A stretch of 64,000 nt of DNA. Source: Polytrichum commune. Its lineage: Eukaryota; Streptophyta; Polytrichopsida; Polytrichales; Polytrichaceae. Below are positions 5,279 to 62,800 of the stretch, one piece after another; positions within the stretch are counted from its first letter, which is position 1; every line of letters starts with the position of its first letter. Below the pieces are notes generated by a model. It was not told where the DNA came from and ran no database searches. It worked only from the letters and a program-made list of their open reading frames with translations. Location: positions 48,935,554 to 48,999,553 of the forward strand of contig OX485803.1 in NCBI GenBank assembly GCA_950295325.1. Reading direction: 5' to 3'. A program made the translations under genes and the position numbers.

Positions 5279-6249
5279 AATATTGTCGCAACCCTTAACA
5301 ATCTTGCCAATTTTCGTTTCTAGCAAAGGTTACGAGCGCTAACCATTCGCATTCCGCCATGCTAATGGATAGCTCCTCTTACCCCGGACCAATAGTTCAT
5401 AGGAGGGAACCAACCCTCCTACTTTGCTTTCGGGACTCACCCCTTAATCGGTAACCCATTTCCCCAATGTGGACTTCCATCCATGGAAGTCCAATCCTAT
5501 GTTGATCATCGCGTTGCCGGAGCAACACTACAACAACCCGAAGCATACTAGGCAACTATGGCCTCACAATAGGCCAAAGCCCATGGAGGCCTTGCCGTTC
5601 GGCCTCGGGTGGGTGAGGCCACACCACCTCACCCATATAAGCCTCTAGGACTCTACACGGAGCCCCTACCCCACCGCCAACCAACCTCTTGTCTCTCTAC
5701 CAAGAGTTGGGGCCAAGTGGACATTTTCCCTTAGCTGCTGGGCCTAGAACCCCCCCAGCAGCTTCAGACCATCATAACTTCCTTGTATGATGTCTGATCA
5801 TAACAACCAACCACTCCATCCTCATCTACGCTTCACGTAGATACCGATGGACTCCTCGCTTGCCCCATTCGGGCAAGTATTGAGGAAGTTATGCCTGTTT
5901 GAACCTTGGCAGTCCCGGGAATCACTCCCAGGCACTGCTGTACCAGGGCGCTGTCCCGGGACAGCACCCCACTCAAATGGCCATAACTCCTAGCTCACAC
6001 CTCCGATTGAGGTGATCTTGAGCATTCTAGAATCACCACGCCATGAGCTACGCATAGCTCATGGCCTCACCCTCATGCCTCCTAGTCTTTGTGGGTGGGA
6101 GGCGTTCCCAACGCCCGGGGCCCTCACCCACACTAGGATCACTTGGGCCCTCTCACCAACGGCGCCACAAGTCCCGGGTGTCACTCCGGGGTCCCCCTTG
6201 TGCCCATGGTGTTTCGGGCACTCCTCATGGAGAGGTGCGCGACAAATAT
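5279..6249 (+). mobile_element. Solo LTR of an LTR retrotransposon (Ty3-type ends) with 5-bp TSD
   Basis: The block 5284-6244 (961 bp) begins TGTCGCAACCC and ends GCGACA, giving matched TGTCGC/GCGACA termini. It is flanked on both sides by the same five bases AATAT (5279-5283 and 6245-6249), the duplication made by integrase. It is more GC-rich than its surroundings. A TATA-like CATATAAG at about 5633 would be the U3 promoter. No reading frame for gag or pol, primer-binding site or second LTR is next to it, so this is what remains after LTR-LTR recombination. The TGTCGC start is common among plant Ty3/gypsy LTRs, but superfamily cannot be proven from an LTR alone. Confidence 0.85.
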
Positions 6250-8218
6250 CCTCCCTTACAGATGCAATAGTCTTATAAATGTCATTTCTCTAATGCAATT
6301 AATCTTTTATAATCTCATGTGTGTATTATTTAATTAAAGCTTGGTTAAATGTGAATTTCCATAAAAGAAAATAGGCTATAGTTAAGTTTACTCACGGTTC
6401 AACGATTTAGTCTCAAAACACTATGGCTACCATTTCCACACGAAAGTAATATGAACTCATCATCAATGATCTCCGTCTCAATTGGTAATCTTAGACAATT
6501 ATCTTCTGATTCAACTGTAATTTGTTGATTTGCTACGCAATCTATCATGATTGTTACTCCTATAGCCTATTGAAGTTTCACTTAGCTCTAGCTATAGCTA
6601 AATTGTTATGTCTCAGTTCAATTTTTGCTTTTATAATCAATTAGGTCATGTCCTAACCTTTTAATCTCTCTTGATCACTTGGTTGCTCTGTGCAGCTAAT
6701 CAACTCATAGTCATTCTTGCTGGTACTTCCAATGATTATAGACTAACCACTTACTTATCAATCATCACGATCATTTCAGTAAAATCTTAGCTTCACTAAT
6801 GTATTAACATTTCGACCACACTCTTGGTATCCTCTCCTTTACTTAACATAATCAATACCAATTCATAGAAACCAACATTTTGATATTGATTGCAATTGTT
6901 CAATGTTTCAAAAGTGCTACTAAGCTATATCATGGTTAGCTTATTGTCTTCCTAAAAAAACATTATTTACAGCCTATGCTCTTGTCACCGGTTTCCATAG
7001 CAATAATCTTACGATCTATCTCTCCCACCCAACCTATAGCCTACGCTTACTCTCACTAGCTCTCAAAGTGATAATCTTATTTTTCTTTTGAGAATGATCT
7101 TCTCTCATCAGAGCGGCCTCCCTTATCGCCAGTCTTCTCTGACAACCGGCAATAGGCTAACAACCGTTGGCAACTGCTTATAGCCTTTGATTTCCATTGG
7201 ATTTAGCTTTGGGATGTCCTTTTGGATCCATTTCTAGAAATTCACTTTCTACTACTAATAGGAATAAGCTATAGCCAAAAAATTCATACTACAAAGGTAT
7301 TTATTTTTTATGATTATATTATTGATTATCTTTGCATGATGCTCTAGTTGGACGTCCTAGCATGTTTTTTTTAAATGATTTTTTTGATTTAAGGGTAGCC
7401 ATGCTTGATATACTAGCATCACCTATGTATGTGTGTTAGAGACCTGTGAAACGTATGTTTGTGCATTGTGACATGAGTATGCTTATGTCAGAGTGCTCAT
7501 GAAATAGCAACCCCCACTCCTTAGGGATGCATTCGGCATCGAAGAATTTTCCCTTTTCCCAAGCTATCCCACAATACCAACCAAACAACTAACACAAACC
7601 TTGGGGGGGTGACTTGTAAAAATTAAATTGGAATGGTGTAGCCAAATATAGGGTGTACTTTATCATTTGTAGCTAAAATTTTGAAAATATCTAAGGTAAT
7701 ATATGATGGATAAAATATGCCATATTGGATTATAACTAATAGAAGGTCCTATATAATATGTCCAATTCAATTATTGTAGATATTATATAGCATGTGGAAA
7801 AAATTAGCGTCATGTTGATAAGGAGTATTTGTATGTTGTTTATGCCATTGAGTGTGTAATGACATCATTATTGAAACGTGAGTTATTAAGTTTAGAATTT
7901 TTGGCCATCAATACAAAAGCAACTGCCATTTGAAACTCCATGGTTCTTGGTGCCATTCCTTGGTAACTCATGTTTAGTTTTGGCACTCAAACTATTGGAA
8001 ATATCTTTGTTTTTAATCTTTGGATTCCACTTTTCTAATTTACTTCCTTATGATAAATTAAGAGGTTGGAAAATAACCCCTTCCACATTGATTTGTAAGT
8101 AATTATACGAACCCTCAGAGCATCATGAATTGGATAATTGAATAGTTCATTTGGACCATTAAATACCCCTTGAAATAATATCCCTTGGTCTCATGTGATA
8201 TACAACCCTTTGCAAGGT
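6250..8218. other. Non-genic block rich in a CTATAGCC motif
   Basis: From about 6370 to 7275 the motif CTATAGCCT or a near variant recurs irregularly (about 6372, 6561, 6588, 7031, 7175, 7267). A similar set of motifs follows repeat D copy 2 at 28.7-29.2 kb. It is probably the continuation of the repeat D element beyond the inserted LTR. 7275-8218 holds nothing recognisable. Confidence 0.45.
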
Positions 8219-15893: not shown

Positions 15894-16121
15894 CCAGGGC
15901 CACACCGGTAGGCCCAGCCAAAAACACCAGCCCTACGTATTCTCCGGGAATACAGGGCTGGGATTTCAGATGGCTGGAGCTGCTGGTTGCAGGCTACCCG
16001 CCTTCTTCCAGCCACTCCAGTAGCTCCAGCCATCTGAAATCCCAGACCTGTATTCCCGGAAAATACGTAGGGCTGGTGTTTCTGTCTATTGGAGCTATTG
16101 GGGTTTTTGGTGTGGCCCTGG
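15894..16121. mobile_element. 228-bp foldback element
   Basis: Nearly the whole length is an inverted repeat. The outer ends are CCAGGGCCACACC and its complement. An inner arm of some 60 bases ('acaccagccctacgtatt' through 'tttcagatggctggagct') pairs with one on the right across a short loop near 16000. TA flanks both ends (15892-15893 and 16122-16123). It is GC-richer than its surroundings and non-coding. Arm identity is high, suggesting a fairly young MITE or a stable hairpin; no family name can be given. Confidence 0.75.
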
Positions 16122-18364: not shown

Positions 18365-18586
18365 AACGGGAGGACCGACCCGTTAGTCACAGATGAACCG
18401 GTTGAATTTGAGAAATAACCAGCAGTTGATGTTCTAGACGTCAAGAAAATTACCTATCCTTTTGGAGGAATTTGGAGAATATACCTCAAACTAATAATAA
18501 AAAATCCGAAAGATCACAACACATAACCAGTTGGACTCTGAAGCACTAGGATCTTGACCAGTTATGCCCAAAAATCTCCCCAGACG
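18365..18586 (-). repeat. Dispersed repeat B, copy 1 (antisense)
   Basis: Read on the minus strand this matches 38290-38504 and 53327-53532. Shared landmarks are 'ggggagatttttgggcata', 'agatcctagt', 'tccaactggtta', 'ttatttctcaaattcaac' and 'ggttcatctgtgactaac'. It lies about 385 bases past the WRKY stop codon in the same reading direction, so it could fall in the 3' UTR or terminator zone of that gene. Confidence 0.75.
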
Positions 18587-18970: not shown

Positions 18971-20114
18971 TCAAGATCTGGATATGTTGGGGATGATGGG
19001 TTTGAACATATCCTGAAGGAGGCCCTCATCGATGGCTGCTGATGATTCTTGACCACCACTTGCACTAGTGTCTCCTTGACTTCCTCCTCTGAAGCTCTGA
19101 ACTAGCTCATCACCAACTTGGCTACTCATCATAATTCCCATCCCCTCAGCTACTACTTGTCTTGTCCTACTAGTACCGAAACTTTGCGGCTCCGAACTCA
19201 TGGGACCCCCAGCTCGAGCTAAAGAATGCAAGTCAAATGGACTAGACCTAGTGTTAATACCACTATACAATAACCCCCCACCACCACCCTGTGCTGATGA
19301 TGCCCCCATAACCTGGTTCGAAATTAAGCTTTGACCAACACCAGCTTGGCTGCTCATCACACTCACCACACCAGTTGATGACATGGAAGAATTAGCTCCA
19401 AAAGTAGCTGTAATGCCCTGCTCATGTGCGCCAGGATCTTCATGATGATGATGATGAGCTGCACCTGCACCTGATCCACCGGGGCCAACTAATCTAAAGT
19501 TAGGAAGAAGCTCACTTTTGACTAAAAGTTGATGATCTTGTTGATGGTCCTGCCGATGTATATTAACTAACCTCCGAAGCTCACGTTCCCTAAGTATGTC
19601 CAGATCCTCCTGAAGGCCGGAGGAAGAGGAAGAAGCACCACCAAGCTTTGGTGGTTGCTGCTGCTGTGAAATTGGTCCAGCTTCCTGCAGCCATCTTTGT
19701 AATGAGGGTTTCACATTACTAAGACCTTCTGCTGCCAGGCTAGAAAAACTGGTGGGCAGGAGCTGGGTGGTTGTACAAGTACTGAAGTCGTTAATCGGGA
19801 AATTATCATGCGGTGATGAAGGGGGGAGCAGTAGGGTTGGTGAGGGGTTGACGACGCTGTTGCTGTTGTTATTGTTCATGATGTAATTAGTATTGTGGCC
19901 GTGGCTGGAGAAGAAGGTGCCGAAGCTAGGACCACCGAAGAAGCTGAGGTGGCCTGGGGGAGGGCGCATGAGGTGAAGAAGCTGCTGGTGAGAGCTTGGG
20001 GTTTGGTGAGTGTGCTGGCCTTCGTAGGTGGTGACCACCAGGCCAGGATCCTCGCAGGAGCGCTCCACGCGCTTTCGAACTGGACAATTGGGAGTGGTGC
20101 ATCGGTAGTAGTTC
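18971..20114 (-). CDS. WRKY gene exon 3 (zinc finger and C-terminal region)
   Basis: Starts with the G completing the Arg codon, then [19 protein letters not shown] and the TTYEGQHTH zinc-finger end, followed by about 340 residues of low-complexity sequence. The stop is TGA at 18973-18971. Confidence 0.92.
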
Positions 20115-22751
20115 CTGGATGCACACCATTATTATAACATCAATATCATCATTTGTCAACAGTCAGTTAGTTAAGCTATATACCACAACAACATCATCAT
20201 CATCATCAGTCTACGCTAAACTCAACAGCGTCACTACATAAATACATATGGGGAGATAGATATTGCTCGCAGGATAAGTTATAATTTGTGCCATTCGTGT
20301 CAAGGGTTTGGTACAGCTAGCGCTGCCTCATGAGGTACGTGCGCCTAAAATTGTTATAAGACTAACAGTTATAATCTAGGTCGGTTGCATCTAACTTGGA
20401 GGTTAGTTTATGATGGCTAAAAAGGTAGGTTCACACTGCAAAACGCATGTGGGAATGGACCCTCCTACTCAACCGACAATGAAAGGCCTAAAACCTCAAT
20501 TATATATAAGTTCAAGGTTGATTCATCCCTATATAAGCTCACTAGTCTAATTCGGGCTTTCTAATGTGACTTTTGAGGTCAAATCTGCTAAAAAAAGAAA
20601 TACCCAAGCTATAAGGGAATCTCCAAAAAATAAGGGGTTCCGAAAGTTTCACGTTGACCTTGCAAGATGTGAAAATACTAACTTTTCATGAATGAAAATA
20701 AATATGATTTTGTTTTTTTGTGTCTAATGGGGGTTTGAATCCAAGTGACTAATTCATGGTATTATTGAACTATGTCATGTTTGTTGGGTTCCTTATCTAA
20801 ACTTGATTCATCAGCACTAGTATGGTCCCTTGCCCATGCCAAATTAAATTCGGCAAAAGGAAAGAGAAACAAGGGTTCCACATCATGACAATAGCAAATT
20901 ATACTCCCAGCTACAGGGCTCAAGTGCAAACTTGTGATGATTACTCTAGTGCAAACTTGGAGAGATCCTGTGGAAGAAGATTGCTCACGTGATTGTGTGC
21001 ACGCAACCACCTGCCTTCTTTTCTCAAGTATCTAAGTGTAGTGGTGCCTACCTCCTTGGGAGTCCTATGCGCTACAGATAACTGTCCACATGTCGGTTCA
21101 AGTTTACTTGGTAAAGCAAGAAGGATTGTGGTTTTCTCCACTTCTAGTGCCCCAATTTTCAACCACTTTACATTAGGAAGCACTGTGAAAGACCTGAAAT
21201 TAGAGAGACGTGCGTCGAAATACTAGAAATCATGAGTATAACTATGAGACTTTCATTGACAATGTCAATTGCCGACGACCTACATACTGTTAAACATTTG
21301 TCGGCTGATCAGTTTAACTTCAACTGTATCTCCTAAGACCTCTTCCAAACCGTCGAGCATGATTCATCGAATAACTGAGTCTGGTAATACTCTCCCACGT
21401 GGCCACTGCCGATTGCAGAAGTGGCTGCATTCAGTAATTGTAAATAGCATATACTAAGCTTATAAACACCAGTCCAAGCAACTACTCTAATTTCACCGAC
21501 ACGGAAGAGGAATAATCCTGCAGTAGTCGGAGAGCAAATGAAAACCCCCAGAATCTGAGATGGTCTGATCAGATGATGCTTTGACTATATTGCGGTTGTA
21601 ATCAAATCATGCAATCATCTGTGCATATATAGATTCTCGTTCTCTCTCTCTCTCTACGAAGTCAGGGTTAACCATCTATATAGTAGCAGACATCTTGCTG
21701 AAGACGACACCATCCATGATTAACATAATTTGTGAAATTCTAGGTGCAGTCACCCTGAAGCTTCATGAACGATCCGCGAGCTGGCGGCCAGTCTGTATTC
21801 TGGAAGAATCTTATTAACTCGAGGAAGAGTGTTCACCAAGGGTCAGCCTTATGTACTGACTCCAGATTCAGAAGTAATTAATGGTTGATCGTGATCAGCT
21901 CTGGGACTGTACTAGTCGACACTCACGAGATCTGTACGCAACATTATTGATCTCTCATTTTGGAACCCTCTTGGGTGAAAACTGATGACTCAATATAATT
22001 AGTAAGGTGCGAATCAATCAAATGGAAGTTCTAAGAGACGCTAGCTAGTTGCAGGTTATGAATCTGCAAGCTGCGTAACGTCAATAAATCTTTTACATGA
22101 CCTTGCCCAGAACTATGAAGAAATGGCGGACGAGATCTAAAGGCATCACTTTCGAAACCTGTAGCGGATGGATTATTCCACTGTATATCCAGAAACCATG
22201 TTGGATATTACGCATGATAATCGATGGGCATTGTGCTTGTATTGATGATTGGCCTCATGCACTACAAACCCCAGAATCAATATTGCCAGGATACTTGGGC
22301 GTTCTACAGAAGCAATACAACATAATGCACAAATTTTCAAAGAGCGACTGCTTCAATCGTTTTCCTCATTATAGTATCTGCATTTGGGTGACGATCCCAG
22401 CGAGTTCAGTTCTAGTGTAGATGAAGAGGTGCAGATGCAATTTTATACCTGGGATGAGGGCTATTCTTGACAGCTTTCTGGCCATACTTGCGCCACTTGT
22501 ATCCATCGTCCATGACATCGGTGTCGGTCCTTGTTTTAATGGCGTACCGAGGCTCACGCACTCGCTTGGCGCCCCCTTTCTTTCGAACGGGCCGGTTCCT
22601 GCAAAAAATCCGTGCCCTACACTCTCCCAATTAGAAACTTGACCCTCAGACTAGTTTTGATCTACCAAATTAATCCTAAGCGCTCTCAATATTCCTCACA
22701 GATTTTATCTTGTCGTCGACACTCTCTGGAGCTTTCAAACGTTTTATTCAC

Positions 22752-31752: not shown

Positions 31753-31864
31753 TGTGAAATAGTAAGTCCCGACTTCCATGCTCTCAACAGATGAGATTAC
31801 ACGGATTGACCTCAAATGACTTGGGACCCATTTGAACCGTCCCTTAGTGTGTGCACAAGTGTTA

Positions 31865-32644
31865 CAATCTAACCTCATTAATACGACACTCATTTATACG
31901 ACACCCTCGACATTACGACATATTTTTGCGAGACCAAACTTTTTAGTTCAAAACTCCCTCTTTCACACGACTGCGACACTCGATAATGTGACAATTAGAA
32001 TCTTCGTTTTGTCATATTATAAAGGTAGTTAATGCTTTATAAAAATTCATCTATGTTATGTACATCCAAAATACATCCATTTTCACTCGGAAACTACTTG
32101 GGAGCTACTTGGGAACTTCACTCATCAATGGGAACTTAATAATAATTAGGGTTACTAGTGTAGAATGGATATGGTTAGGGTTAGAGTGGCCTCCTGCTTG
32201 GTATGCTGCCTTGTACACGGACGATATAATATCACGAGTATCTTGATGTTAAACGTCATGCATCATTGTTGTTTGGTTTCTTATTAGAGAACTTTTTATA
32301 TTTTGGTGTTAATGAAATTATAGTTCTCAAAAGTTAGTAGGGAATTTAGATGAGATGATAGCTACTAACTAGGGTAGACAACACCAGAGATCTTTGGACT
32401 CCTATTTCAAGAGTTGTTGAGAATTTTTGTATTTGCTTGAACTTATAAGTTATGATTTCATACCATCTATATTGCTTAAACTCGTTGTATATATTTTTAA
32501 GCTCACAATTACTTATGTTTTCGTATTCCCTCAATAATACAACAACTTTACGCCATTTGTCATATTCATGAGAAGACAACACCTCGATAATACAAAAAAA
32601 AAAAAAGTGTTTCCCAAACGTGTCATACTAAAGAGGGAGAAGAA
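31865..32644. mobile_element. Pogo/Tigger-like non-autonomous element, copy 1
   Basis: 780 bp, collinear with 40188-40913 over its full length. The left end reads CAATCTAACCTCATTAATAC and is followed by iterated GACAC-type subterminal motifs ('atacgacac' about every 20 bases). The right end holds the same motifs inverted ('cctcaataatacaac', 'gtgtcatac'). TA flanks both ends (31863-31864, 32645-32646). This terminal design (CAGT-like start, AACCTCGTTAATACGAC iterations, TA target) is typical of pogo/Tigger elements of the Tc1/mariner superfamily. No transposase frame is present. Confidence 0.75.
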
Positions 32645-35339
32645 TAATGCGAGAGAACCTCCGCCATGATGAGCATGAGCATGAGCATGTCTCTATAACC
32701 GAGTTTTGGAGACTTGCTCACACATTCCTTGGACCATTTTAAAGGAACCTTCGAACTCATGCTATCGGATCGGAAGGAGTATTTTTGAAAAGTGACATCT
32801 ACACGAACATATTGGAAATGCCCATGGACTATTTTATGATGCCCAATGCTTTTTCAAAGCATGAGAAGCGAAGAGCAAGAAATACCTTTTGTGTACAAAC
32901 GTACATCTCAACCATCAAGACAACAGTGTTTTGGAATAACATGTAGATCGGAGGCGACTTATTACAAATAATAATTTGACTTCAATAATAACTCCCAAAA
33001 CCCTAAATCGATCCAATGAGACACGTCGGGGGGAAACGTCATCCACACATCCACATGGAAGGAATGAAATCATCCATCAAGGATGGATGAGAGGTATGCT
33101 TGTGGTATATACTACATCATCTTTTTTCCTCTCGCCCACTCGAGCACATTCAATTATCCTTGTCACTCCGTTCATCCCCAAATTGTCTTGGGCCACGCGG
33201 AGTCAAACAACGAATTAATGGTCGGGGTTTGAAGTTCGTGAAGGCGACACTCCAAAGCCGAATGAGTGTAACTTACTTATTAATACCGCCACCGAGCCTT
33301 TGAACTTTTGCTTGGATTGAGTCACCGAGATTCGAGATGGGTGAAAGAAAATGAAGCGAGCCGTTGTGGTAAAACGACACTAGGGTTAAGTAAGTGACGA
33401 TGCCAACAAGGAGCTTTGAACAACCATGACTCGATGGGGCTCACAAAGACTTGATCTAGCTTACTAGGCCAAAGGTCGACTCTCCTTTATTGACTAGTCC
33501 CGTTGAATTTGTATTCTCCGGGAATGGAATTTAAGGGTGTCACTCATACATACTAACGCGGAGCCAAGGAGTGGAAATTACAAATTCATGGCCTCGGCTT
33601 GAAGCACGACTACTCACAAGTATACCCGAATTTTGGAATGTAATAAGCTTACCTCATATTCAACTCCACCTCTACGACTATATTTGGGCCAAACGACGTA
33701 CATTTTTGAACCACTACGTGGGTCCACATCACTAGGTCAACCCAATACGCTTCAGTAATTTATGTTCTATTTTTACTAGACTTACCTTGTTGAAGGGATC
33801 GTTTTATTATCCACATGGGACCACGTTGGCGGCTTCAATAGTAGTGATGAGACTCACTTGTTTTCATAGTGTTAAATTCACGAGATATGGAATATAGTAT
33901 TGGACTTATTTAGGAGTTGACTAGGCACGGTATGTAGAAGTTGAAATGGGCAATGCTAATGTGTGTGGGGTTTAGGTATTCATGGTGTCTACTACATAGA
34001 CTCCTCCATTGGGAACGTGAAAATGTGCTAGGGAAGTTGTCATTCTATAGTCTATAAATGACGATTTTCAAATGATTTGACTATGGGAAGAACATAGGTT
34101 AGACTCCGCGTTAGCTTAGCGCATCGTTTACTAAGTGAGCAACATCATAAGAGTAAACCTTCTCTATTTAGAGAAAACATGGGGCAACTTCTAAAGGTTT
34201 TGGATCATGCATCAAAGAAAATATTATGTAACTAGTTGAATATGGCGGCAATATGGTTAGGAGTAGGCCTAAATGATGGGGTTGCTACTAACAGTCCGGC
34301 CCACATTTACTGGTGTGGGCCGCCAACAAACGGCTCTTACCAGAAGGGGTCATTTTTAGTTCCAATTTGGCCAGTGAGAGCCACGAGATGTAACTAGTGC
34401 TGGTAGAAACCGTTCACTAGTGGCCCACGCCAAAAAGTGCGGTTGAGCTATAAGTTAGCCAACCAAACAACATTGGTGGCGACGCAGTTTGCAAGTGCCG
34501 GTCATACATGGAGCAACAAACTTCACAATACTCCACATGAATGGCTGCAGATCATGGGAGTCCCATGGATAATGGATGGATCATTATGAAGTGATTCCTT
34601 GTCCCACAGTGCAACATCACTAGGTTGAGTAATGTTATGGTGGGATTCAGGTAAATTGAATTGGTCCTCGAATTAATGGGGTTTGTTTTTATTATATGTG
34701 CATGTGATCCCCACGAGGTGCACCTTTCATTATAAACCAAGAACCATGTGCATTCACAACATACTCTAGCAAACCCCCTATATACGAGTAGTTTTGTAAA
34801 ATCGAGTAATATATGTTCAATTTTAATAATAAAAATACAAATGATGTGATGTATATATTCGTAGTGTATATATTCAACCCAACACCCTAGATTCAAGCGT
34901 CCAGTGTCCTCGTCCTCAAAGCCCACTAAACAACCACAAAGCGTTAAAAATTAAGTAATATTATCTAATCCAATAAAGCCTACCATTAAAAGGTGATATG
35001 TCACATACCTCAATCGCTCATAAATAATACAATAAACATTTAAATTCAATACGATGATTGTGAACTTTCAATGGAATATAATATACAAACTTCGCCCTTA
35101 ACAAATACAATGTGATTGACTATAAGCTCGAACCACTCGACCATAAGAGAGAGACAATAGAAAGATCCTCTCTCCTCCCCCGAGCTTCCTCTTAAGCCAA
35201 AGGCACTACTTTTACTTTCTAATTCCAAATATAATAAAAGTTTTATATTCACAGTTCTAAATTTAGTTATGCTATGAATCTTCTATCTTTAGTTCCTCTA
35301 GAATCTTCTCTCATTTTTTGTCTCAATCACATTCTTCTA
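32645..35339. other. Intergenic, no recognisable gene
   Basis: 33.0-34.1 kb is somewhat GC-richer but has no coding pattern. At 34282-34312 GGCCCACA pairs with TGTGGGCC across eight bases, and related ACTAGTGG and GTGGGCC motifs recur to about 34430 in both orientations, which resembles the subterminal region of a CACTA element; this is tentative. Confidence 0.4.
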
Positions 35340-35644
35340 GTTGGAATTGTTTATTTCCAACTTTATTCATTCATCCATTATTCTAGTTGGAACCGTCTAA
35401 TTCTAACTTGATTCATTTATCCATTGAGAGTTGTTTAACTCCAATGAATAACATCCATCCGCTAGGAGTTGTCTAACTCCGATTCATAACTTCTAGTTGG
35501 AATTGTCTAACTCCAACACAAAGATCTTCCACCAGGAGTTGTCTAACTCCTGTGCACAATATGTCCGTGGGTTGTCTAGCCCTTGTGCACATTTCATTGA
35601 TGGGTTGTCTGGCTCATTTCTTCCTCTAGAGTTGTCTGACTCTA
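35340..35644 (+). repeat. Array of nine stem-loop units around a GTCT/GTTT loop
   Basis: Nine short palindromes occur at 35340-35361, 35386-35407, 35424-35444, 35465-35480, 35496-35517, 35533-35552, 35569-35582, 35601-35616 and 35627-35644. Most have the form arm-GTCT-arm. The arms differ between units yet remain complementary, allowing G-T wobble: GGAGTT/AACTCC, CAGGAGTT/AACTCCTG, GGGTT/AGCCC, TAGAGTT/GACTCTA, GTTGGAA/TTCCAAC. Start-to-start spacing is about 25-46 bases. Linkers are AT-rich and partly shared (ATTCATTCATCC, TGTGCACA). No reading frame spans it. Function unknown. Confidence 0.8.
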
Positions 35645-37463
35645 ATCACCATCTGCTCACATGCTAAATACATCAAAGTATGGTTAGTCATCATTTCCCC
35701 CCAATCCATCAATCAATAAACCTCTTATTTAAAGTATCACTAGGATATATCACATGGTAGTACCGTAGTCCCATGGTGAGGTCTACAAATCTTTGCCAAA
35801 TGATCAATCTTTTGTCAAGATCCATTTTGGCAAATGAGATACATGTATTTCTTTACAAAAATGAGGATTTTTGACCCAAGTTCCTAACAAACCCTAAAAT
35901 AAGATAATGAAAGCCAATACCATCCCGAGACTACATGCAAAGAGGCTAGGTATGCTTTCGGTCTTGCTATCTTAATAAAGAATGTCAATTTCAAACAAAT
36001 TATCATTGTCCGAATTCAAATTCATTTTTGAGTTCAACGTGACAACAACTATTTCATAATTGGCTAAACACGGTTGTATCATACTACACATTCAAGGAAA
36101 CATGATTTTGAAAACATGAACTTCACAAACTCTCCCTCTATCTCTCTCTCCACATGTTACATTGACATTTTTTCACAAGGGTTTACAAAGTTGACCATTT
36201 GCATATCAATAACCATCGGTTGTTAAAGCGAACCCCGAATTTCTCCACTCACTAGGGCATACGTAGTGTGGCCACTCAAACTTTCTACAAGGTACTACCG
36301 AATGTGCATGTGAGGGTTTAAATGTCACATCTTTAGGTAGGTATGCCGCCCATACTTCAATCCCCCTCTCACGTATTCAAAGCATTGGCTTGGTTTCGGG
36401 GAAAAACATTAGCCGCCATGTGGCAAGAAGTGGTGCCTTTAAAGCGAATCACTTCAAAATCAAAGTTGGTGAAATTTGGAAATACGATCTTGCAATACGA
36501 TCCGGATGGCCATTCAATCAACTCTTTCCATTCCAAAAGTCATTTCGACATTTGGACCTCCAAAAGCTAGTTGGGCCCCTTTTAGGCCACCCTCTAGATT
36601 GTCTCCTTAAAGTGTCGGCAAGTTTGTTGTGATGATGGCGATGGTGTGTGGTGTCTTGTGGTGAATGGACCATGTGTGTTAGTTTTTATAGATATAAATA
36701 TAGAATATTTATCACTTATGTATTATGCTATGTCATAAAGCAAAGCTCTCAATTTGTTTTTTTGTCTGGCCTGTAAGTTTGTTTTTGAAAGAATGTATGC
36801 AGATGAATGTGAAAACCCGATAATCAATGTGGATTTAACCAAGTTAAAATTCTATCATTTGAAACTCATTTACAAAATTAGATAGAGCTACGTAGAACCT
36901 AAGTTTTCTTCCACTTGAGTCTAGATAACTTTGTTTATTCATCCATGTAAAGAATCATACTAAAAGTAGTTACTGTTTTTTATTATCATACTAGTAATGA
37001 TTCAAAATAAGTGTGGAATGTCAATAAGCGTGGGGCAAACTTAATTGCACATAGGAGTGTGACGATTTGCAATTGCCATACTGCATTCAAGTCACCTTCC
37101 ACTTACATCCAAAAAACCGCTCATGGCCACTCAATAGAAATAGAAGCTCTATACCTAGTTTGTGGATCATTTTTATGATCTGATTCATTGTTTTGCATGT
37201 TATGATTTTTAAAATAGGTGTCTATCACTATAAAATAAGAATTTTTTTTGAAATGATTTTATCATATAGTTAGCTTGCTCTGAAAAAACTGTAGCAGAGA
37301 CTTCTAGTTTACATAAATCGGTCGCAAATCTAGGGTGCAAGATATAGTTGACCATATGGAAACGTTCACATGTTCAAAATCCACAACTTTAAGAAAAATA
37401 AATCAATAAATAAACATGTGAACATATTGATAGGTTTCTCAATAATTTCTAGCATATATAGTC
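35645..37463. other. Intergenic, no recognisable gene
   Basis: AT-rich, with short CT tracts near 36140. Reading frames at 36343-36632 have no known domain. Confidence 0.5.
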
Positions 37464-37760: not shown

Positions 37761-38289
37761 CTCCAATCTCAACTAATATGTTAAACATCATTTCATTTCA
37801 ATGATGGTCATCATAAGGGGTTTGGAGTTGATGGCTAGTACCCTTGGTTCTACCTTTCATAAAGAAGAGGTAGGCGTTTAAACCCCTATTCTTTGATTCC
37901 GTCTCTCCAGGGAACTCCATTGGGAACTTTGGGAACCTTCAAAAATCCCACAATGCTCTCATACGATGGGATGAAACAATCCCCTTCATCTTGCAAACAT
38001 TGATTTTTCATCCTACGGAATTTCATCCGTCGGACGTTTTTTTCGGATTGCCCCAACAATTTCGTAGACCGTAAAATGAGGCTCTGTGAACGAATGACCT
38101 AGATGTGGTAAGCCCATGACTACAAACCCTCCATTCACAACGCCTCGGTGACTTGGGTAGACACCCCCGGGGGTAATTTGTTGCCAACTCCCAACCCCCA
38201 CTAACATATCAAGTTGGGTCTTGAATGCCCCAACTTGGACCCAACCCGGGCAAGATTGATTACAACCCAAACAACTGCTCGTGGTCAGT
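37761..38289. other. Intergenic, no recognisable gene
   Basis: The minus-strand frame 38013-38270 has no recognised motif. A segment near 38225-38275 resembles 44930-44985 (both contain 'cccaacc' and 'gattgattacaacc'- or 'cgttggttataacc'-like sequence). Confidence 0.4.
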
Positions 38290-38504
38290 GATCGGCAATA
38301 TTTTTGGGCATAATTGGTTGAGATCCTAGTGTTTGCAAGTCCAACCGGTTACATGTTGATATCCTTCGGTTTTCCTTTATTAAAATGAGTTATATTCTAT
38401 AAATTCCTCTAAAATGATCGGTAATTAGTCTGCAGTCTTGAATTTCAACCAATTATTTCTCAAACTCAATTGGTTCATCTGTAACTAACTGCCGGTTCTC
38501 CCCA
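38290..38504 (+). repeat. Dispersed repeat B, copy 2
   Basis: Matches 53327-53532 and the complement of 18365-18586, from 'atttttgggcataattgg' through 'accggttacatgttgat' to 'ggttcatctgtaactaac'. Confidence 0.75.
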
Positions 38505-40187
38505 ATCATAGCTCATGGTTGCAATGAAGAAAGGAATGGCACACAATTGACCCTTCAAGAACCTTCTAAGAACCAAAATTTATATTGTCAATATCAACAT
38601 TTAAAAAAAAAATCATTTATACACGTTGATTTTAAATACCATAATCAACTTCAAAATGAAGTCAAAGATTTGGTAGTCACCTACCTAACCTTACCAAAGT
38701 ATGAAACTACGGTCGTTGGGAAATGAAACAAGTCATTGATATTTGATCTCTACGAGTCCCAAAGTCTTGCCGGCCTTGGATTTTGATGGGGGTACCCGCC
38801 CCTTCCCGCCACTTGTCAATCACTCACTCGTTACAAATAGTTTCCTAAAAGTGTTGGCATGTTTGTTGTGGTGGAGGTGGTGGTGGTGATGGTGGTGATG
38901 GTGATTGATTTTGAAACAATCACTTGGAAACTTAAATTGGGGTTGTGAGAATGCGAACAACTGAATAATCTCGTCAATGTGAAGCGTGTCTAACAACCAT
39001 GTTGTCATCAAGGATATTATTGTCTTTTGGTGGTGGATTCTGTGACAGAGTTTGTGACCTTGTCTTATCGTTCATTTTTTGAAAGCACTCCAACAACATC
39101 ACCAAAGTTCTTGGTACCATTGTCCCGAATCCCTTATGTCCCATGAGACCACAACGTGGTCTAGAGTTCGGGGAAGCATGATTCCCCTTAGCACCAGCTG
39201 GAGGTCCTTTTAGAGTTGAAGAGAATATTATTTTGGGAGGAGTGTGCAAGGTTCAATTCATAACGATGATTTGAAAAGTAGTTTTGGGGTCCCCATACTA
39301 ATTATGTTTCACAATTCAGCTCATAGTCAATCTCCCAACCAATTAATTTTTTCTCCAACGGAATCACTATATTCATGAAAACTACCGACTCGCAATCCCC
39401 AAATAGGGTTTATCTTCAAAGAAAAGTTGTCAAGAATAATATATTCTAATCGCACAAAAAACGAAACACTTAGTTATATAGATATTAATCTTGATAGTGT
39501 TAATGTTAATAATAGATAGAAGTTACCTCTTTTTAAATAACCTTAAAAATAACAGTAAATAGACAAGGATAAGGGTTAGTTAAAGAAGGGGATTATATAA
39601 GGATAAGAGAGAAGGTGCTAAGAAAGAATAACCACTACTGAAGGTGTGATTAGGACTAGAAATAGGGAGTTGAGATAAGAGTGGAAAAAGATATTTAAGT
39701 GAGGAGTGAACAATGACAAGGGTGACCAATTTTGTAAGGAGATTCGGGGGTTTGGATTATCATTTTGAATAAAGGTGTGAAGATGTTTGTTGAAAGTCTG
39801 TAAAGATGGTATGGTAGTGCATAAATTTTAGTTGAGGATTGTTAAAGAGCTAGCACTGTTCTTTAGGTAATCAAGTGTTGGTAGCAGTGTTGAGGACTTT
39901 GAAGATTGGTTTAGGGGATTATGGTCAACACCTAATTATAACAAGGAAATGAAATAGCTCGGAAGAATAACCGAGGTGGTAGAGAGCAATATTTAGTCAA
40001 GAAAAGATTATAAGGGATTGGGTTGGTTCAAAAGCATTGGAATTTTGAGATAGAATTACCGAGATGATTGCATCATGAGTGTTATTGGGACGGTAGAAGG
40101 TGTAGAGGCATCATATGCACCCCTTTAAATAAGACAGAGGTTATATAATGGTAAAATGGGATAAAGCCATGAATAGCAAAGTGTATA
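38505..40187. other. Intergenic, no recognisable gene
   Basis: Contains a GGT/GAT-rich microsatellite at 38867-38905. From 39520 to 40130 the plus strand is purine-rich, without a coding pattern. Confidence 0.5.
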
Positions 40188-40913
40188 CAGTCTAACCTTG
40201 TTAATACAACACTTGTTTATACGACACCCTCGATATTACGACACATTTTTGTGAGACCAAATTTTTTAGTTCAAAACTTCCTCTTTTATACGACTACGAC
40301 ACTCGATAATGCGACATTAAGAATCTATGTTTTGTCATATTAAAGAGGTAGTTAATGCTAAAATTTCTTTCATTTATGTTATGCACATCTAAAATACATC
40401 CATTTTCACTTGGGAACTACTTGGGACCTTCACTTACCATTGGGAACTTAATGAGAAATAGGGTTACTAGTGCATAATGGACATGGTTAGGGTTAGAGTG
40501 GCCTCCTGCCTAGTATGTTGCTATGTGTCATAAATCATTGTTGTCTAGTTCCTTATTAGAGGACTCTTTATATTTTAGTGTTAATGAAATTATTAGTTCT
40601 CAAAAGTTAGTAGGGAATTTAGATAAGATGACAGTTGCTAACTTGGGTAGGCAACACTAAAGATCTTTAGACCTCTATTTCAAGAGTTCTTGAGAATATT
40701 TGTATTTGTTTGGAGTTATAAGTTATTATTTCATACCATCTATATTGCTTAAACTCGTTGTAGATATACTTTAAGCTCACATTACTCATATTTTCATGCT
40801 CCCTCAATAATACGACAACTTTAAGCCATTTATCATATTAATGAGAAGACAACACCTTGATAATACAACTTTTTCGTGTTTCCCAAACGTGTCATACTAA
40901 AGAGGGAGAACAT
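40188..40913. mobile_element. Pogo/Tigger-like non-autonomous element, copy 2
   Basis: 726 bp. The left end is CAGTCTAACCTTGTTAATAC and the right end is an imperfect inverted match (about 16 of 25 positions). TA flanks both ends (40186-40187 and 40914-40915). It aligns along its whole length with copy 1 at 31865-32644 and is shorter by small deletions near 40525. Non-coding; it would need a transposase supplied elsewhere. Confidence 0.78.
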
Positions 40914-47668: not shown

Positions 47669-47815
47669 CATAACATTATTCAAATCCATAACAATGTTAT
47701 GTGGGATTGACATTATTTTACAAAATATTCTCCACATTGAGACTAAATGTGGAGAATATTCCACATAATAATGTCAAACCCACAAAACATTGTTATGGAT
47801 CTGAATAGTGTTATG
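47669..47815. repeat. Long hairpin (69-bp arms, 9-bp loop)
   Basis: Arms at 47669-47737 and 47747-47815 are complementary with about ten mismatches. Non-coding. Confidence 0.85.
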
Positions 47816-50189: not shown

Positions 50190-50288
50190 CACATACTGTA
50201 ATTAACATAGTCCAAGGTCATGAAACTGATATTATTGAGTCATGTAGATCAATTTCATGACCTTGGACTATGTTAATTACAGTATGTG
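50190..50288. repeat. Near-perfect hairpin (41-bp arms, 17-bp loop)
   Basis: The left arm 50190-50230 (starts CACATACTGTAATTAACA) and right arm 50248-50288 are complementary except for one position. No target-site duplication is obvious. Confidence 0.92.
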
Positions 50289-51531: not shown

Positions 51532-51574
51532 AATAATGAATTTAGCAGTGTATCCAATATGCTTTGCTTTAGCC

Positions 51575-51745
51575 CATGCTCACCCATGAACAATAATATC
51601 GAACCCATGCCCACCCATGAACAATAACATCGCAGCCATGCCCAGTCATGCCCACCCATGAACAACAATATCGCAGCCATGCCCACCCATGCCCACCCAT
51701 GAATAATAACATCGCACCCATGCCCACCCAAAACCCATGGGCATG
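51575..51745. repeat. Minisatellite with CCCATGCCCACCCATG core
   Basis: About five degenerate units of 30-41 bp, each with CCATGCCCACCCATG and AACAATAACATCGCA-like parts. Similar core units also occur on the other side of the hAT fragment (about 51228-51275). Confidence 0.85.
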
Positions 51746-53239: not shown

Positions 53240-53532
53240 TTGGGCCCAAGTTTGAAGATTAGTTTCTCAAACTAAGGAGGGGTATTTTCTTGAACAGGGT
53301 TTGTCGAGATCTGGTGGGAAAGTGATGTCCGGGGAGATTTTTGGGCATAATTGGTCTAGATCTTAGTATTTTCAAGACCAACCGGTTACATGTTGACATC
53401 TTTAAAAGATGAACCAAAGATTATTCCATAAATTCTTCCAAATGGATTAGTAATTTTCCTAAAGTCTTGAATTTGAACCGGTCATTTCTCACACTCTACC
53501 GATTCATCTGAAATTGGTGCCGGTTCTTCTTG
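53240..53532 (+). repeat. Dispersed repeat B, copy 3, with LTR-like 5' junction
   Basis: 53327-53532 matches repeat B at 18365 and 38290. Its upstream part (53240-53330: 'tttctcaaactaaggagggg', then TGTCGAGATCTGGTGGGAAA at 53302) is shared with 57637-57725. A purine tract followed by TGTC looks like a polypurine tract and LTR start, but no LTR end or TSD was found. Confidence 0.6.
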
Positions 53533-58418: not shown

Positions 58419-59841
58419 GTGAACTATCTTCGCACAAATCGCACTTGTGCAATTGGTGGAGAATTAAGTAGTGAAGGGCAATTCTGTTTCTACCGTTAAT
58501 CTCTCACCAATTCATCTACACAAATTCATCATTTTGATATGATTTTTCGATCCCTTAGCTTATTTGGTTGGGCGTGTCCATCGCAAGCAGGTGGAATGGG
58601 TCGTACCTCTGGACGAGGAAGGAGGGCCGGTGGTGGCGATGGAGTGGAGGGTGGAAGTGGAGGCCGTCGTTGTTGGCCGCTCCGGCGGTCAGGTAGAACC
58701 TCGAAGCTCTCTGACCTGCCTTGATTGATTTTGAACTTGATACTGAACAATTTCCAAGGTAGCCACAAAATTAGGGTTTTGAAACACGTCTGGCTTTCGA
58801 ATTCCCACTTCAGGGTTCTTGTCTTTATCTCTCATTGTTTCCGCGTGTCGAAATTGTGGTCCTAGACTCCACAAACAATTTTGACCGCCGGATCGAATCG
58901 AATCAGGAATTGTCTCATGCGGTTAGCAATTGCTATGAATCACACAGATTGTCATCTCAAGTGGCAGAATTCAAATAGAGATGCAAAAGTCATAGGAGGT
59001 CAAAGTGAAGAATCTCTTTCTACTCGAGTTATTACATGGGCCCGCCTAATTGTGATGTTCACTATCGAACCTAAAATGGGTCTATATTTTGAACACATAG
59101 TCCAATTTCAATTAACACGCATCTTTTTGGTGTCCGTTCTTTATTACAAGTTTTGCCATATACCACTCAAGAATTGGTACAAAGAAGAGTGACCACATAT
59201 GGCCCACATTCCTTGATACAAGAATCTGCTTGAGTCTTCCTGTTCATTGAATTTTTACCATCACTTGGCTATAGCTTCATGTGTGATTTGCTTTCTATTC
59301 ATTCTAATTTCTGATTGCTTCCTTTTGATTGCATTGTATTGCGTATATAAACTATGAAGGCACTGGTTTGACTATTTCTCTTGATTCTGATATTATGTTG
59401 TGCTGATTTCCTTTATCTGTAAGCTTTGTTTGAGCATTGAAACTTACACAGACACCTTGATTCTCAATTCCAATTTATCATGTCTGGAAACCCATGTCCA
59501 TATTTTGTGCACCTGAACTGAAGAATTTGGTGTTGCAGGTGGTGGAGGTCAGTGATTCTGGCCTAGAAGTGCAAGAGGTGGGTTCATTGCAAGGAGGCCT
59601 TTTGGCCATGGCTGCTAGCCCGGATGGGGAGCTCCTGCTTTTAGTCACTGGGGCCGGCCAGCTTCTTGTGATGACTCAAGATTGGGATCAGCTATATGAA
59701 GTTTCCCTCGGCAAGGACCTTGACACTTCAGTAAGTACTTGAGCATCTTTTCTCCACATGAGATTTGCCAAGGTTCTGAGCTCATTTGCAATCTGCTCCT
59801 CGGGGTTTAATGGTATCTTTTGTATGATCAGCAGCGATTGA

Positions 59842-59886
<45 letters not shown>

Positions 59887-62800
59887 GAGACATTCTGCCG
59901 CTGGATTTGACTCGGGAATTGTCCCTTCCAGCTAGCAACTGCAAATCACAAAGATTGTCATTTTGAGTTTCAGAATCAGTGTAGAGATGCAAAAGCTAGG
60001 AGAGGCCAAAGTGTAGATTTTTTTTACTCTTTTAAACAATCATAGAGGCCCTCTCAATTGTGATGTTCACTATTGAATGTAGAATGGTATTTGAGCACAT
60101 AGTGCAATCTTATTTAAACACCTGTCTTTTTGGTGTCCATTCTCAACTACAAGTTTTGCCATATACCACTCATATAATATAGGTGTCTGATTAAGAAGAG
60201 TGACCCAATTAAGGCCCGACATACCTTAGAATATGTGTTTGCGTGCCTGTGATTACTGATTCTGATGATTCCATGTAGGGCAGCGTGCAACTCAGCTGGC
60301 GAGGGGACGGAAAATATTTTGCAACACTCATCACTGGATATGGCTCCTCAAACAGTGCAGAGCAGCTGAAGATCTGGGAACGGGAAACTGGAACGGTGTA
60401 TGCGGTTGGGGAGCCGACCCCGTTCATTCAAACGGCACTGTCATGGTGTCCGTCCGGGGCGCGGATTGTCACGTCATGTAGCCAAGCCAACAATCAGAGT
60501 CCTCCCCAAATCATCTCGTTTGAGAAGAACGGTTTGAAGCGAGACAAGTTTCAGCTCGAGGGGCCTCTGGAAACCCAGGTCATTTCCCTCAAGTGGAACA
60601 GCAACTCAGAGCTTCTGGCTATGGTGGTCAAGAACCAAGACTGGATCGGTGTACAAATCTGGAACTGCAACAACTACCACTGGTATTTGAAACAGGAGTT
60701 GCGGTATCCAAGTTCTGAGGAACTGAATGTGGTTTGGGATCCTGAAGATGCGATGAAACTCGTTTGCTGGACAGCGAGCGGAACAGTCCGCACTCTCAAA
60801 CTTGGATGGAAGTCGGCAGTATTGGAGTCGAGCACTGCACTGGTTATCAATGGACATAACCTTCTTGTCTCACCTCTCTCCCTTGCACTCATCCCCCCTC
60901 CCATGTCCCTGTTTACAATCACATTCCAGGCACCTGTGCAGGTGGTGGCTTTCACACAGCAAACAGATGGTTGTAGTTTGATAGCTGCACGGCTTTCGGA
61001 TGGTTCATTAAGTGTCGTTCGATGCCCCAAGCTGGCGGACTGGCTAGATCTCGACAGCGAGAATTACAATGCTCGTTCCCTCTCAGTCCTTTCTGATTTG
61101 AGGCAGAGCATCAGTGAGCTTCGACACCTTACGTGGTTACGCTCCGGGGCCCTGCTTGGTGCTCTCTCTGTTCAGCCCAGTCTGGGCAATGCAGGGAGTA
61201 ACGGCAAATTCTCAGGAACACAGAATGGAGTCTTCTCGAAGACATATCCTGGCAGTCAGGAGATTCTGGTGGAAGTTGATCTTGAAGGAACCGAAGACAA
61301 CTCGAGCCTTGTATCTGATAGTTTCCAGATTCAAGGAGTGCAGGAAACGCCAGTGAAACAGGCGGTTGTGAGCATCATGAAGAACCCGGTACCTTTGTCA
61401 CAGCATGGTGGAGATGCGTTCGTTCAGCTGGACGATGGGGCTGTTGTCATGTACACTGAATCACAGGGAGCCTCAAACTTTGGCAGGACGGTGATTGGGG
61501 CATTCCAAAGTCCCTCACCGTTGATGGAAGTGCTCCGGTTTGGAACAGGGGAAGTCAAGCTCGTGGGGCTCAACGATCGAGGCCGCCTGGAGCTCTTACA
61601 GCACTCGATACTCTGCAACGATTGCACGAGTTTTGCGACGCATTGGGCAGCCGATTCGCGGTCCCACCTGCTGTACACTACGCAGAGAGATTCGCTACAT
61701 GTTGTGGACTTAGCAGACCTGTCGTCTGTGTCAGATGCAGAATCAAAACAAGAGGTGAACATGAGACCAGGATCCAGAGTAGGGCGGAAACCGAAAGCAG
61801 CCGGTGCCCAAGAAGAGGAATTGAAGGTTCGGCCCCTGTGGGAGAGGGGGGCAAAGTTGCTGACTGCGCTGGGTGGTCAGGATGTCGCTGTAGTAATGCA
61901 AACCATTCGTGGGAATCTGGAGACGATCTATCCTCGGAGTCTTGTCTTAGGTGCAATCGCAGAAGCACTCAAACAAGGCCACTACGGTGAAGCTATGGGG
62001 TTGACGAGGAGGCACCATATCAACCTCAACGTGATTGTAGATTATGGAGGTTGGGAGAATTTTTGCACAAAGGCTTCTGAGTTTGTCAAGCAGGTTTGTC
62101 TGCAAACTATTCTTTGTTAGTTGAAGTATGTGGTTGTTCTGTCTTTGTTGTAGATGAGGATGGTAACTGGTAGGATTTTTTCATAGCCAAATAGCACTTG
62201 GTGGTCTCGTACATGTGGACGCCCTTTCACTAATTTTGTGAAAATTGGGATTTCCTTCAGGTGGGTAAGCTGAATCACATCACCGAACTAGTTTATGCAT
62301 TGAATAATGACAACATAGTTGACACAAGCTATAAAAATCTGCTTCCCCCATTCCCAACTGCAGTAGGAGCAAAGGATGCTCGAACAGAGCTGATGAAGTC
62401 TCAACTTCCAGGAAGTAAGGTACAGGGTGTTTTGAAAGCATTGAAAGAGGCCGTTGAGAAGGAGGTTGCTAGCAGTCCGGGGAAAGAGCTATGCATTTTG
62501 GCCATGTTAGCCAAGTCCCAGCCACCGGAACTCAAAGAAGCCCTGCATCGTGTCAAATCCCTGAGGGAGGCTGAGCTGCAAGGGGAGATTGCTGTGGAGC
62601 TTGAGGCTGTTGAGGAAGGAGGAAAGGATTTGAACAAGGCAATATTGAGTGCTGAGGCTGCATTGAAACACTTGTTGTGGCTATCAGATGCAGAAATTGT
62701 GTTCAAGGAGGCACTTGGTTTGTACGATCTACACTTGGCAGCAATGGTAGCCTCTCATGCACAGAGAGACCCAAAAGAATTTCTTCCACTCCTGAAGGAG

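Follow-up and report, generated by a model that had tools for sequence, protein, structure and literature searches.

An ordered array of imperfect palindromes with paired arm changes in the putative U3 region of a probable solo LTR

Introduction

Palindromic motifs clustered in LTRs have been described for Sireviruses, a Ty1/copia group with members such as Osr10, Inga and OPIE-2. An element carries 8-32 palindromic motifs, which mostly cluster in the LTR's upstream half. In the 3' LTR most copies begin 200-400 bp from its start and precede the TATA box, and a function was suggested there on no test, as far as the accessible part of the report goes (PMC2829016). Tandem repeats in U3, presumed to act in transcription, are described for Tnt1 and similar plant LTR retrotransposons (PMC3601003). 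For the Del/Tekay chromoviruses TG...CA ends and solo LTRs are reported, and the accessible text contains none of the words palindrom, hairpin, stem-loop or tandem repeats (PMC4029996).

Here, nine imperfect palindromes are analyzed that share a GTCT/GTTT loop and form an array at positions 35339-35647 of the window, by which the whole 64-kb stretch of DNA is meant (G000:C1:48935554-48999553; searched genome of 408 Mb in 64 contigs). A sequence-only reading of the window had held that no such family was described and that part of an uncharacterised transposon would be the simplest alternative. The first statement is not supported, since Sirevirus LTRs are known to bear palindromic arrays before the TATA box (PMC2829016), and the second is borne out by the position of the array in the putative U3 of an LTR. 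Judged from the listed search results, no report of this array-bearing LTR family was found in the open-access literature, and papers retrieved with a literal 10-mer concerned, among the matches listed, other subjects by title.

Like the Sirevirus motifs, the units of the array are dyad-symmetric palindromes that cluster in the putative U3 before the TATA box, here a TATA-like site. Unlike them, they lack a CGG-CCG core, which is also missing from the Tnd-1 motif, and the array starts ~108 bp into the LTR as against 200-400 bp, according to the available part of PMC2829016. The comparison covers array palindromes within the LTR. Heterogeneity of the units as such is not unique to the array, as the Citrus motif is given as 66.5% identical in the same part of that report (PMC2829016), whereas ordered unit classes with paired changes set the array apart from the Sirevirus repeats. 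Compared by description only, the array shares tandem repetition in U3 with Tnt1 but differs in that its units are palindromes (PMC3601003). TG...CA ends and solo LTRs are shared with Del/Tekay; the commonest U3 end given there, TGTAACACCC, is in contrast absent here, where the LTR starts with TGTGATATAT on the sense strand (PMC4029996, available part). Thus, the kind of arrangement is known from Sirevirus palindromes, and as judged from the sequence the array would differ in its link to Ty3/gypsy, its non-CGG core and its classes with paired divergence. This points to the presence of palindromic arrays also in the U3 of an LTR linked to a Ty3/gypsy pol, beyond the Ty1/copia Sireviruses for which they are described. 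With 159 measured units, paired divergence can be separated from later decay, and it becomes testable whether palindromes of this type are maintained as structures, as binding sites for proteins or through template switching.

The array and its copies in the genome

The nine units could be identified in 24-nt frames at the place given by the sequence-only reading, and their core is GGAGTT/GGAATT-GTCT-AACTCC/AATTCC. On the + strand they are unit 1 (class A, 35339-35362), unit 2 (class A2, 35385-35408), with two C-A mismatches beside the loop, unit 3 (class B, 35423-35446), in which by eye the outer arm is in register only with an extra A in the left arm, unit 4 (class C, 35461-35484), unit 5 (35495-35518), unit 6 (35531-35554), unit 7 (class F, 35564-35587), unit 8 (35597-35620) and unit 9 (class H2, 35624-35647). 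Units 5, 6 and 8 stand at the places of classes D, E and G and were labelled A, C and F, respectively, by the script, which goes by the left arm.

The array contained 4 hairpins with at least 7/8 Watson-Crick pairs and a 4-nt loop; dinucleotide shuffles had 0.124 on average, and none of 1000 had more than 2. Folding z-scores were -4.8 for the + strand and -5.0 for the - strand, and equally stable shuffles were obtained in 0/100 cases for either strand. Hairpin density in the window was higher near 14.5 and 22.7 kb, where simple repeats are located. No Rfam match at the gathering score was found in the 64-kb window, and the exact unit pattern had no match in viral contigs. Gene pieces in the window that are consistent with a plant are a WRKY piece at 18971-20128 (minus strand), ~15 kb from the array, and ELP1 pieces from 60279 on, ~25 kb from it.

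A genome search for further arrays, as had been proposed earlier, gave 60 matches to the array query, distributed over 40 places of which the window is one (40 scored of 676 first-look candidates). The copies analyzed are the window and 20 of the 40 matched places; the other 19 places were left out. Two LTR subfamilies were visible, which differ in their ends and have the same array. Over the 21 copies 159 units were collected, of which 128 have a GTCT and 20 a GTTT loop. Units were accepted when the left arm matched a class seed at 8/10 positions and the loop was GT[ACT][CGT], so that badly decayed units are missing from this count, and the class seeds had been picked after inspection of a first listing, in which the pairing shows. 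Three regions of that listing, L010:3758-4699, L024:4171-4399 and L028:4104-4399 (oriented coordinates), stand outside the count of 159 units.

On the + strand, one to several A units, often 46 nt apart, and A2 are followed by B after 38 nt, C after 38, D after 34, E after 36, F after 33, G after 33 and H after 27 nt. This one class order and spacing was observed across the 21 copies with gaps, most copies being without some units or having units otherwise labelled by the script. At L021:4260-4454, additional A-type units were observed at a distance of ~500 bp from that locus's main array; they are either a detached fragment or the trace of another insertion.

In a scan for perfect 8-bp stems in 16 loci bearing a primer-binding site (PBS), scattered hairpins were present in 13/16, and by eye no array-like hairpin repeats were seen among the hairpins listed (up to 12 per locus); this control is small, as most of the loci look like one family. 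None of the 16 loci matched the array-bearing LTR. Another LTR of this genome (L035, L036) ends with GAGATATGTGACA then TTGGTATCAGAGC, an end resembling that of the array-bearing LTR, and neither an array nor a match to the array-bearing LTR was found in these two loci.

Anatomy of the LTR

Homology of the genomic copies to the window copy extends from 34998 to ~35755 and then stops. TG...CA ends are present in the window copy (TGTCACATAC...ATATATCACA on the + strand), and the adjoining 5-mers, TGATA at 34994-34998 and TGGTA at 35755-35759, match at 4/5 positions as expected for the two copies of a target-site duplication. On the homology limits, the TG...CA ends, the 5-mer flanks and the polypurine tract of locus L012, a solo LTR of 756 bp at 34999-35754 is the most plausible reading of the window copy, with the minus strand as the sense strand of the element (TGTGATATAT...GTATGTGACA).

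Both ends could be resolved in 8 of the 9 copies tried, out of 21, with the LTR edges first placed by eye; L024 was tried and gave no call. The flanking 5-mers were equal at 4/5 positions or more in 6/8 of these copies: the duplication was 5/5 in two (L016, L018) and 4/5 in four, among them the window copy, and poor in L012 (1/5, joined to internal sequence) and L013 (3/5). A duplication of 9 or 8 bp, as for a DNA transposon, had been considered from L024 alone and was rejected, as the remaining resolved copies fit 5 bp.

A putative TATA-like site was assigned at 35189-35197 (minus strand) from an alignment of 11 LTRs by eye; it reads TATAAGAG in L018 and L023 and is decayed to GCTTAAGAG in the window copy. 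The array, on the minus strand, occupies LTR positions ~108-416 and ends ~140 bp upstream of this site. By its position, the array would belong to the U3 of the LTR, because in the sense orientation it lies upstream of the TATA-like site. Directly past this site, at 35146-35176 (minus strand), visual inspection of the 11-LTR alignment showed an inverted repeat GGAGAGAG...CTCTCTC in several LTRs; it might form a hairpin where R begins.

We favour, with a probability of roughly 60%, a reading in which the array represents the cis-regulatory part of U3 in an LTR retrotransposon, an old insertion of which survives here as a solo LTR, because the array is located upstream of the TATA-like site, comprises many units at a set spacing and is more similar between copies than the rest of the LTR (see below). 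The solo LTR would be the product of recombination between the two LTRs of that insertion. Eight or more palindromic units, each at a set distance from the TATA-like site and upstream of it, would most likely have worked as an enhancer or repressor with multiple sites, recognized as dyad-symmetric DNA. What the sequence shows is the layout of LTR and array, the number of copies, the divergence of arms in pairs from class to class and the absence of a significant constraint on pairing among copies; the regulatory role and the force that held the arms paired are what we infer.

Probable link to Ty3/gypsy

In Ty3/gypsy elements RNase H is followed by integrase and then by the 3' LTR. On the minus strand of locus L012, a polypurine tract (TTTTAAGGGGGGAGAGAT) abuts the LTR (5272-4502), and upstream of it remnants of SH3_Tf2-1 (5514-5636, E 6e-4, weak and below the Pfam cut-off), of the zinc-binding integrase domain H2C2 (6367-6756, E 2e-7) and of RNase H (7018-7200, E 7e-11) were identified. 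Because RNase H, integrase and 3' LTR stand in this order, L012 as a single locus suggests that the array-bearing LTR is linked to a Ty3/gypsy pol, in contrast to the Ty1/copia pol of Sireviruses. The orientation of the window LTR was taken from L012. A Spore_III_AF Pfam match in this locus (E 6e-4, below the cut-off) was set aside as chance.

Linked pol remnants were present in 1/21 copies, L012 itself, and its three pol pieces had matches in no other fetched locus. A second LTR was absent from the 3 kb beyond L012, and no copy with two LTRs was seen in the 20 fetched 9.9-kb loci, in which the flanks comprise only ~4.5 kb a side. Both the single copy with pol remnants and the lack of a two-LTR copy within the flanks read count against the favoured cis-regulatory reading. 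The pattern GTGACA-N(0-12)-TGGTATCAGAGC occurred at 16 sites in the genome, and for this pattern only, none was located beside an array-bearing LTR; solo LTRs carry no primer-binding site.

Paired change of the arms

In the nine units of the window, own arms formed 44/54 Watson-Crick pairs at arm positions 3-8, compared with a mean of 31.7 when the right arms were permuted, and 48 of 362,880 permutations were as good. For the class majorities 42/48 cells were paired versus a permuted mean of 30.25, with 12 of 40,320 permutations as good, and across all 8 choices of class variants this number was 12 or 24 of 40,320. Thirteen copies have 7 to 9 units; when each was tested alone, own pairs exceeded the permutation mean in all of them, with fractions from 0.0001 to 0.043. 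The permutation test keeps whole arms together and is somewhat liberal, giving p<=0.05 in 148/1600 and p<=0.001 in 1/1600 simulated runs. In simulations of independent arms on trees, the observed excess was reached in 0/1600 runs, and because such trees never gave this excess, relatedness alone is not the source of the paired change. Covariation beyond the relatedness of the units was therefore found both by class-level permutation and by simulation.

The paired arm change described in the sequence-only reading thus exceeds chance. Its statement that the arms are complementary in nearly every unit holds for the 44 inner pairs, whereas 10/54 cells are non-Watson-Crick, unit 2 has its C-A mismatches by the loop, and some of the pairs listed as complementary, e.g. 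GGGTT/AGCCC, need a G-T pair.

Covariation was also scored on 54 units chosen by hand from the 106 that lie in + oriented loci (seven copies; 159 units in total), 52 of the 54 being distinct. Here, 46 double-changed cells were observed versus 18.2 in shuffled sets, and a slid partner gave 2 to 23. Three of five measures (cells paired, double-changed cells and covariation score) ranked above every one of the 500 shuffles and of the six slid controls; the other two were without excess over the shuffles (pairs with double change, 5 vs 5.9; further pair types, 15 vs 16.8).

Changes on both sides of the stem were observed at position 3 (G-C/A-T), 4 (A-T/G-C), 6 (G-C, with few T-A and A-T), 7 (T-A, G-C, A-T) and 8 (T-A, C-G). 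A site read base by base would conserve its bases, and paired change at these positions fits a structure or a copying process better than such a site. Such a structure might have been selected in RNA or single-stranded cDNA: the U3 stretch of the genomic RNA, between polypurine tract and R, would form a row of tetraloop hairpins acting in packaging, reverse transcription or RNA stability. Paired changes at 5/8 pair positions, the constancy of the loop among the 159 units and the folding z-score of about -5 for the sense strand are in line with this. However, classes F (18/21) and B (10/28) have T-G at position 2 of the + strand, and G and H (5/8 each) and H2 (4/4) have it at position 1, which in the sense RNA would be an A-C mismatch; only the C-A in A2 (19/19) favours the sense strand, and the common wobbles do not decide the strand. 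The two covariation measures without excess likewise count against this reading, and selection on RNA or cDNA structure is regarded as unlikely, if worth considering. It can also be proposed, tentatively, that a Ty3/gypsy U3 carried an ordered set of ~eight different hairpins in which pairing and not sequence was selected, a structural code in RNA or cDNA that would be convergent with the Sirevirus palindromes and traceable through many fossil copies.

Conservation and decay in the copies

Within classes, own right arms paired about as well as those of other copies (734 vs 729.9 pairs, 862/5000 shuffles at least as good). The mean number of pairs per unit was 4.616 with the own arm, 4.614 with the arm of another copy of the class and 3.333 with that of another class. 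These values within classes speak against a role of the pairing at present. Since the arms differ in a paired way from class to class and no significant excess is present within classes, it is concluded that the pairing arose in the living element and that the copies are fossils in which it is now decaying. In the active element the units would have been multiplied through tandem duplication, with their arms diverging in pairs, and complementarity could have been held because symmetry or structure was selected, because template switching copied one arm from its partner, or for both reasons. After insertion nothing would hold the pairing, and each copy would decay on its own. Among decayed cells G-T outnumbered A-C (82 vs 37); this excess was dropped as a strand signal, because units were picked by the left arm and left changes are under-counted.

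Between the subfamilies array identity was 0.81 vs 0.56, 0.66 and 0.65 for the other LTR parts, a difference inflated by the use of the array as query in finding the copies. Within the first subfamily, under the same bias, it was 0.86 vs 0.79-0.84. The right arms, the only part of the unit not used in picking units, had an identity between subfamilies of 0.765, hardly better than the 5' spacer (0.733), with 0.640 for the 3' spacer. This slight difference argues against a strong constraint on the arms. Because of the weak conservation of the right arms and the two covariation measures without excess, the cis-regulatory reading becomes slightly weaker, and an explanation by template switching slightly stronger.

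According to the latter, template switching during DNA or reverse-transcriptase synthesis would rewrite one arm from the other, and the paired changes would be purely mutational and without function. The mechanism has been described and can produce multi-base compensatory changes with the loop kept; in the accessible part of that report the authors call the evidence for the maintenance of short stems circumstantial (PMC8794818). Neighbouring pairs do differ together in the array: positions 7 and 8 are A-T (14/21) and C-G (11/21) in class F vs T-A (13/16) and T-A (14/16) in class D. Template switching alone, however, leaves the class order and spacing and the higher conservation of the array, a biased measure, unexplained, and if it were ongoing in the genome, an excess of own-arm pairing within classes would be predicted, where none is significant. 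As the sole explanation it is regarded as quite improbable.

The array could also have been a target of host silencing, with transcribed palindromes being diced and guiding methylation, and with the array persisting as its regulatory function is indispensable. Single stems of 8-10 bp, such as those observed here, are short for Dicer, and silencing would be an effect on the element that gives no reason for paired arms. On the other side, according to the available part of PMC10760457, small RNAs accumulate where palindromes cluster in maize Sireviruses. Overall, silencing is considered a very improbable explanation of the array.

Other repeats in the window

Two direct copies at 31853-32641 and 40176-40910, 8.3 kb apart and flanking the array, are identical in 643/792 aligned columns and contain AATACGACACTCATTTATACGACACC near one end. 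At first they resembled LTRs; the separate boundary at 34999-35754 and their own ends point instead to a different dispersed repeat, present in two copies that lie around the array by chance. They look like derivatives of a DNA transposon. A dispersed repeat of ~220 bp is located at 38286-38514, 18368-18585 (reverse) and 53327-53527, and was matched also in 9/20 fetched loci. Three long near-perfect inverted repeats at 15916-16087, 47669-47815 and 50190-50288, with arms of 71, 73 and 41 nt and gaps of 30, 1 and 17 nt, respectively, are perhaps MITE-like or small-RNA precursors. At 51573-51730 a tandem repeat was observed, whose units of 31/41 nt are rich in CCCATGCCCA and ~88-90% alike. Immediately before the ELP1 pieces, two direct copies at 58900-59214 and 59909-60227 are 75% identical and ~1 kb apart.
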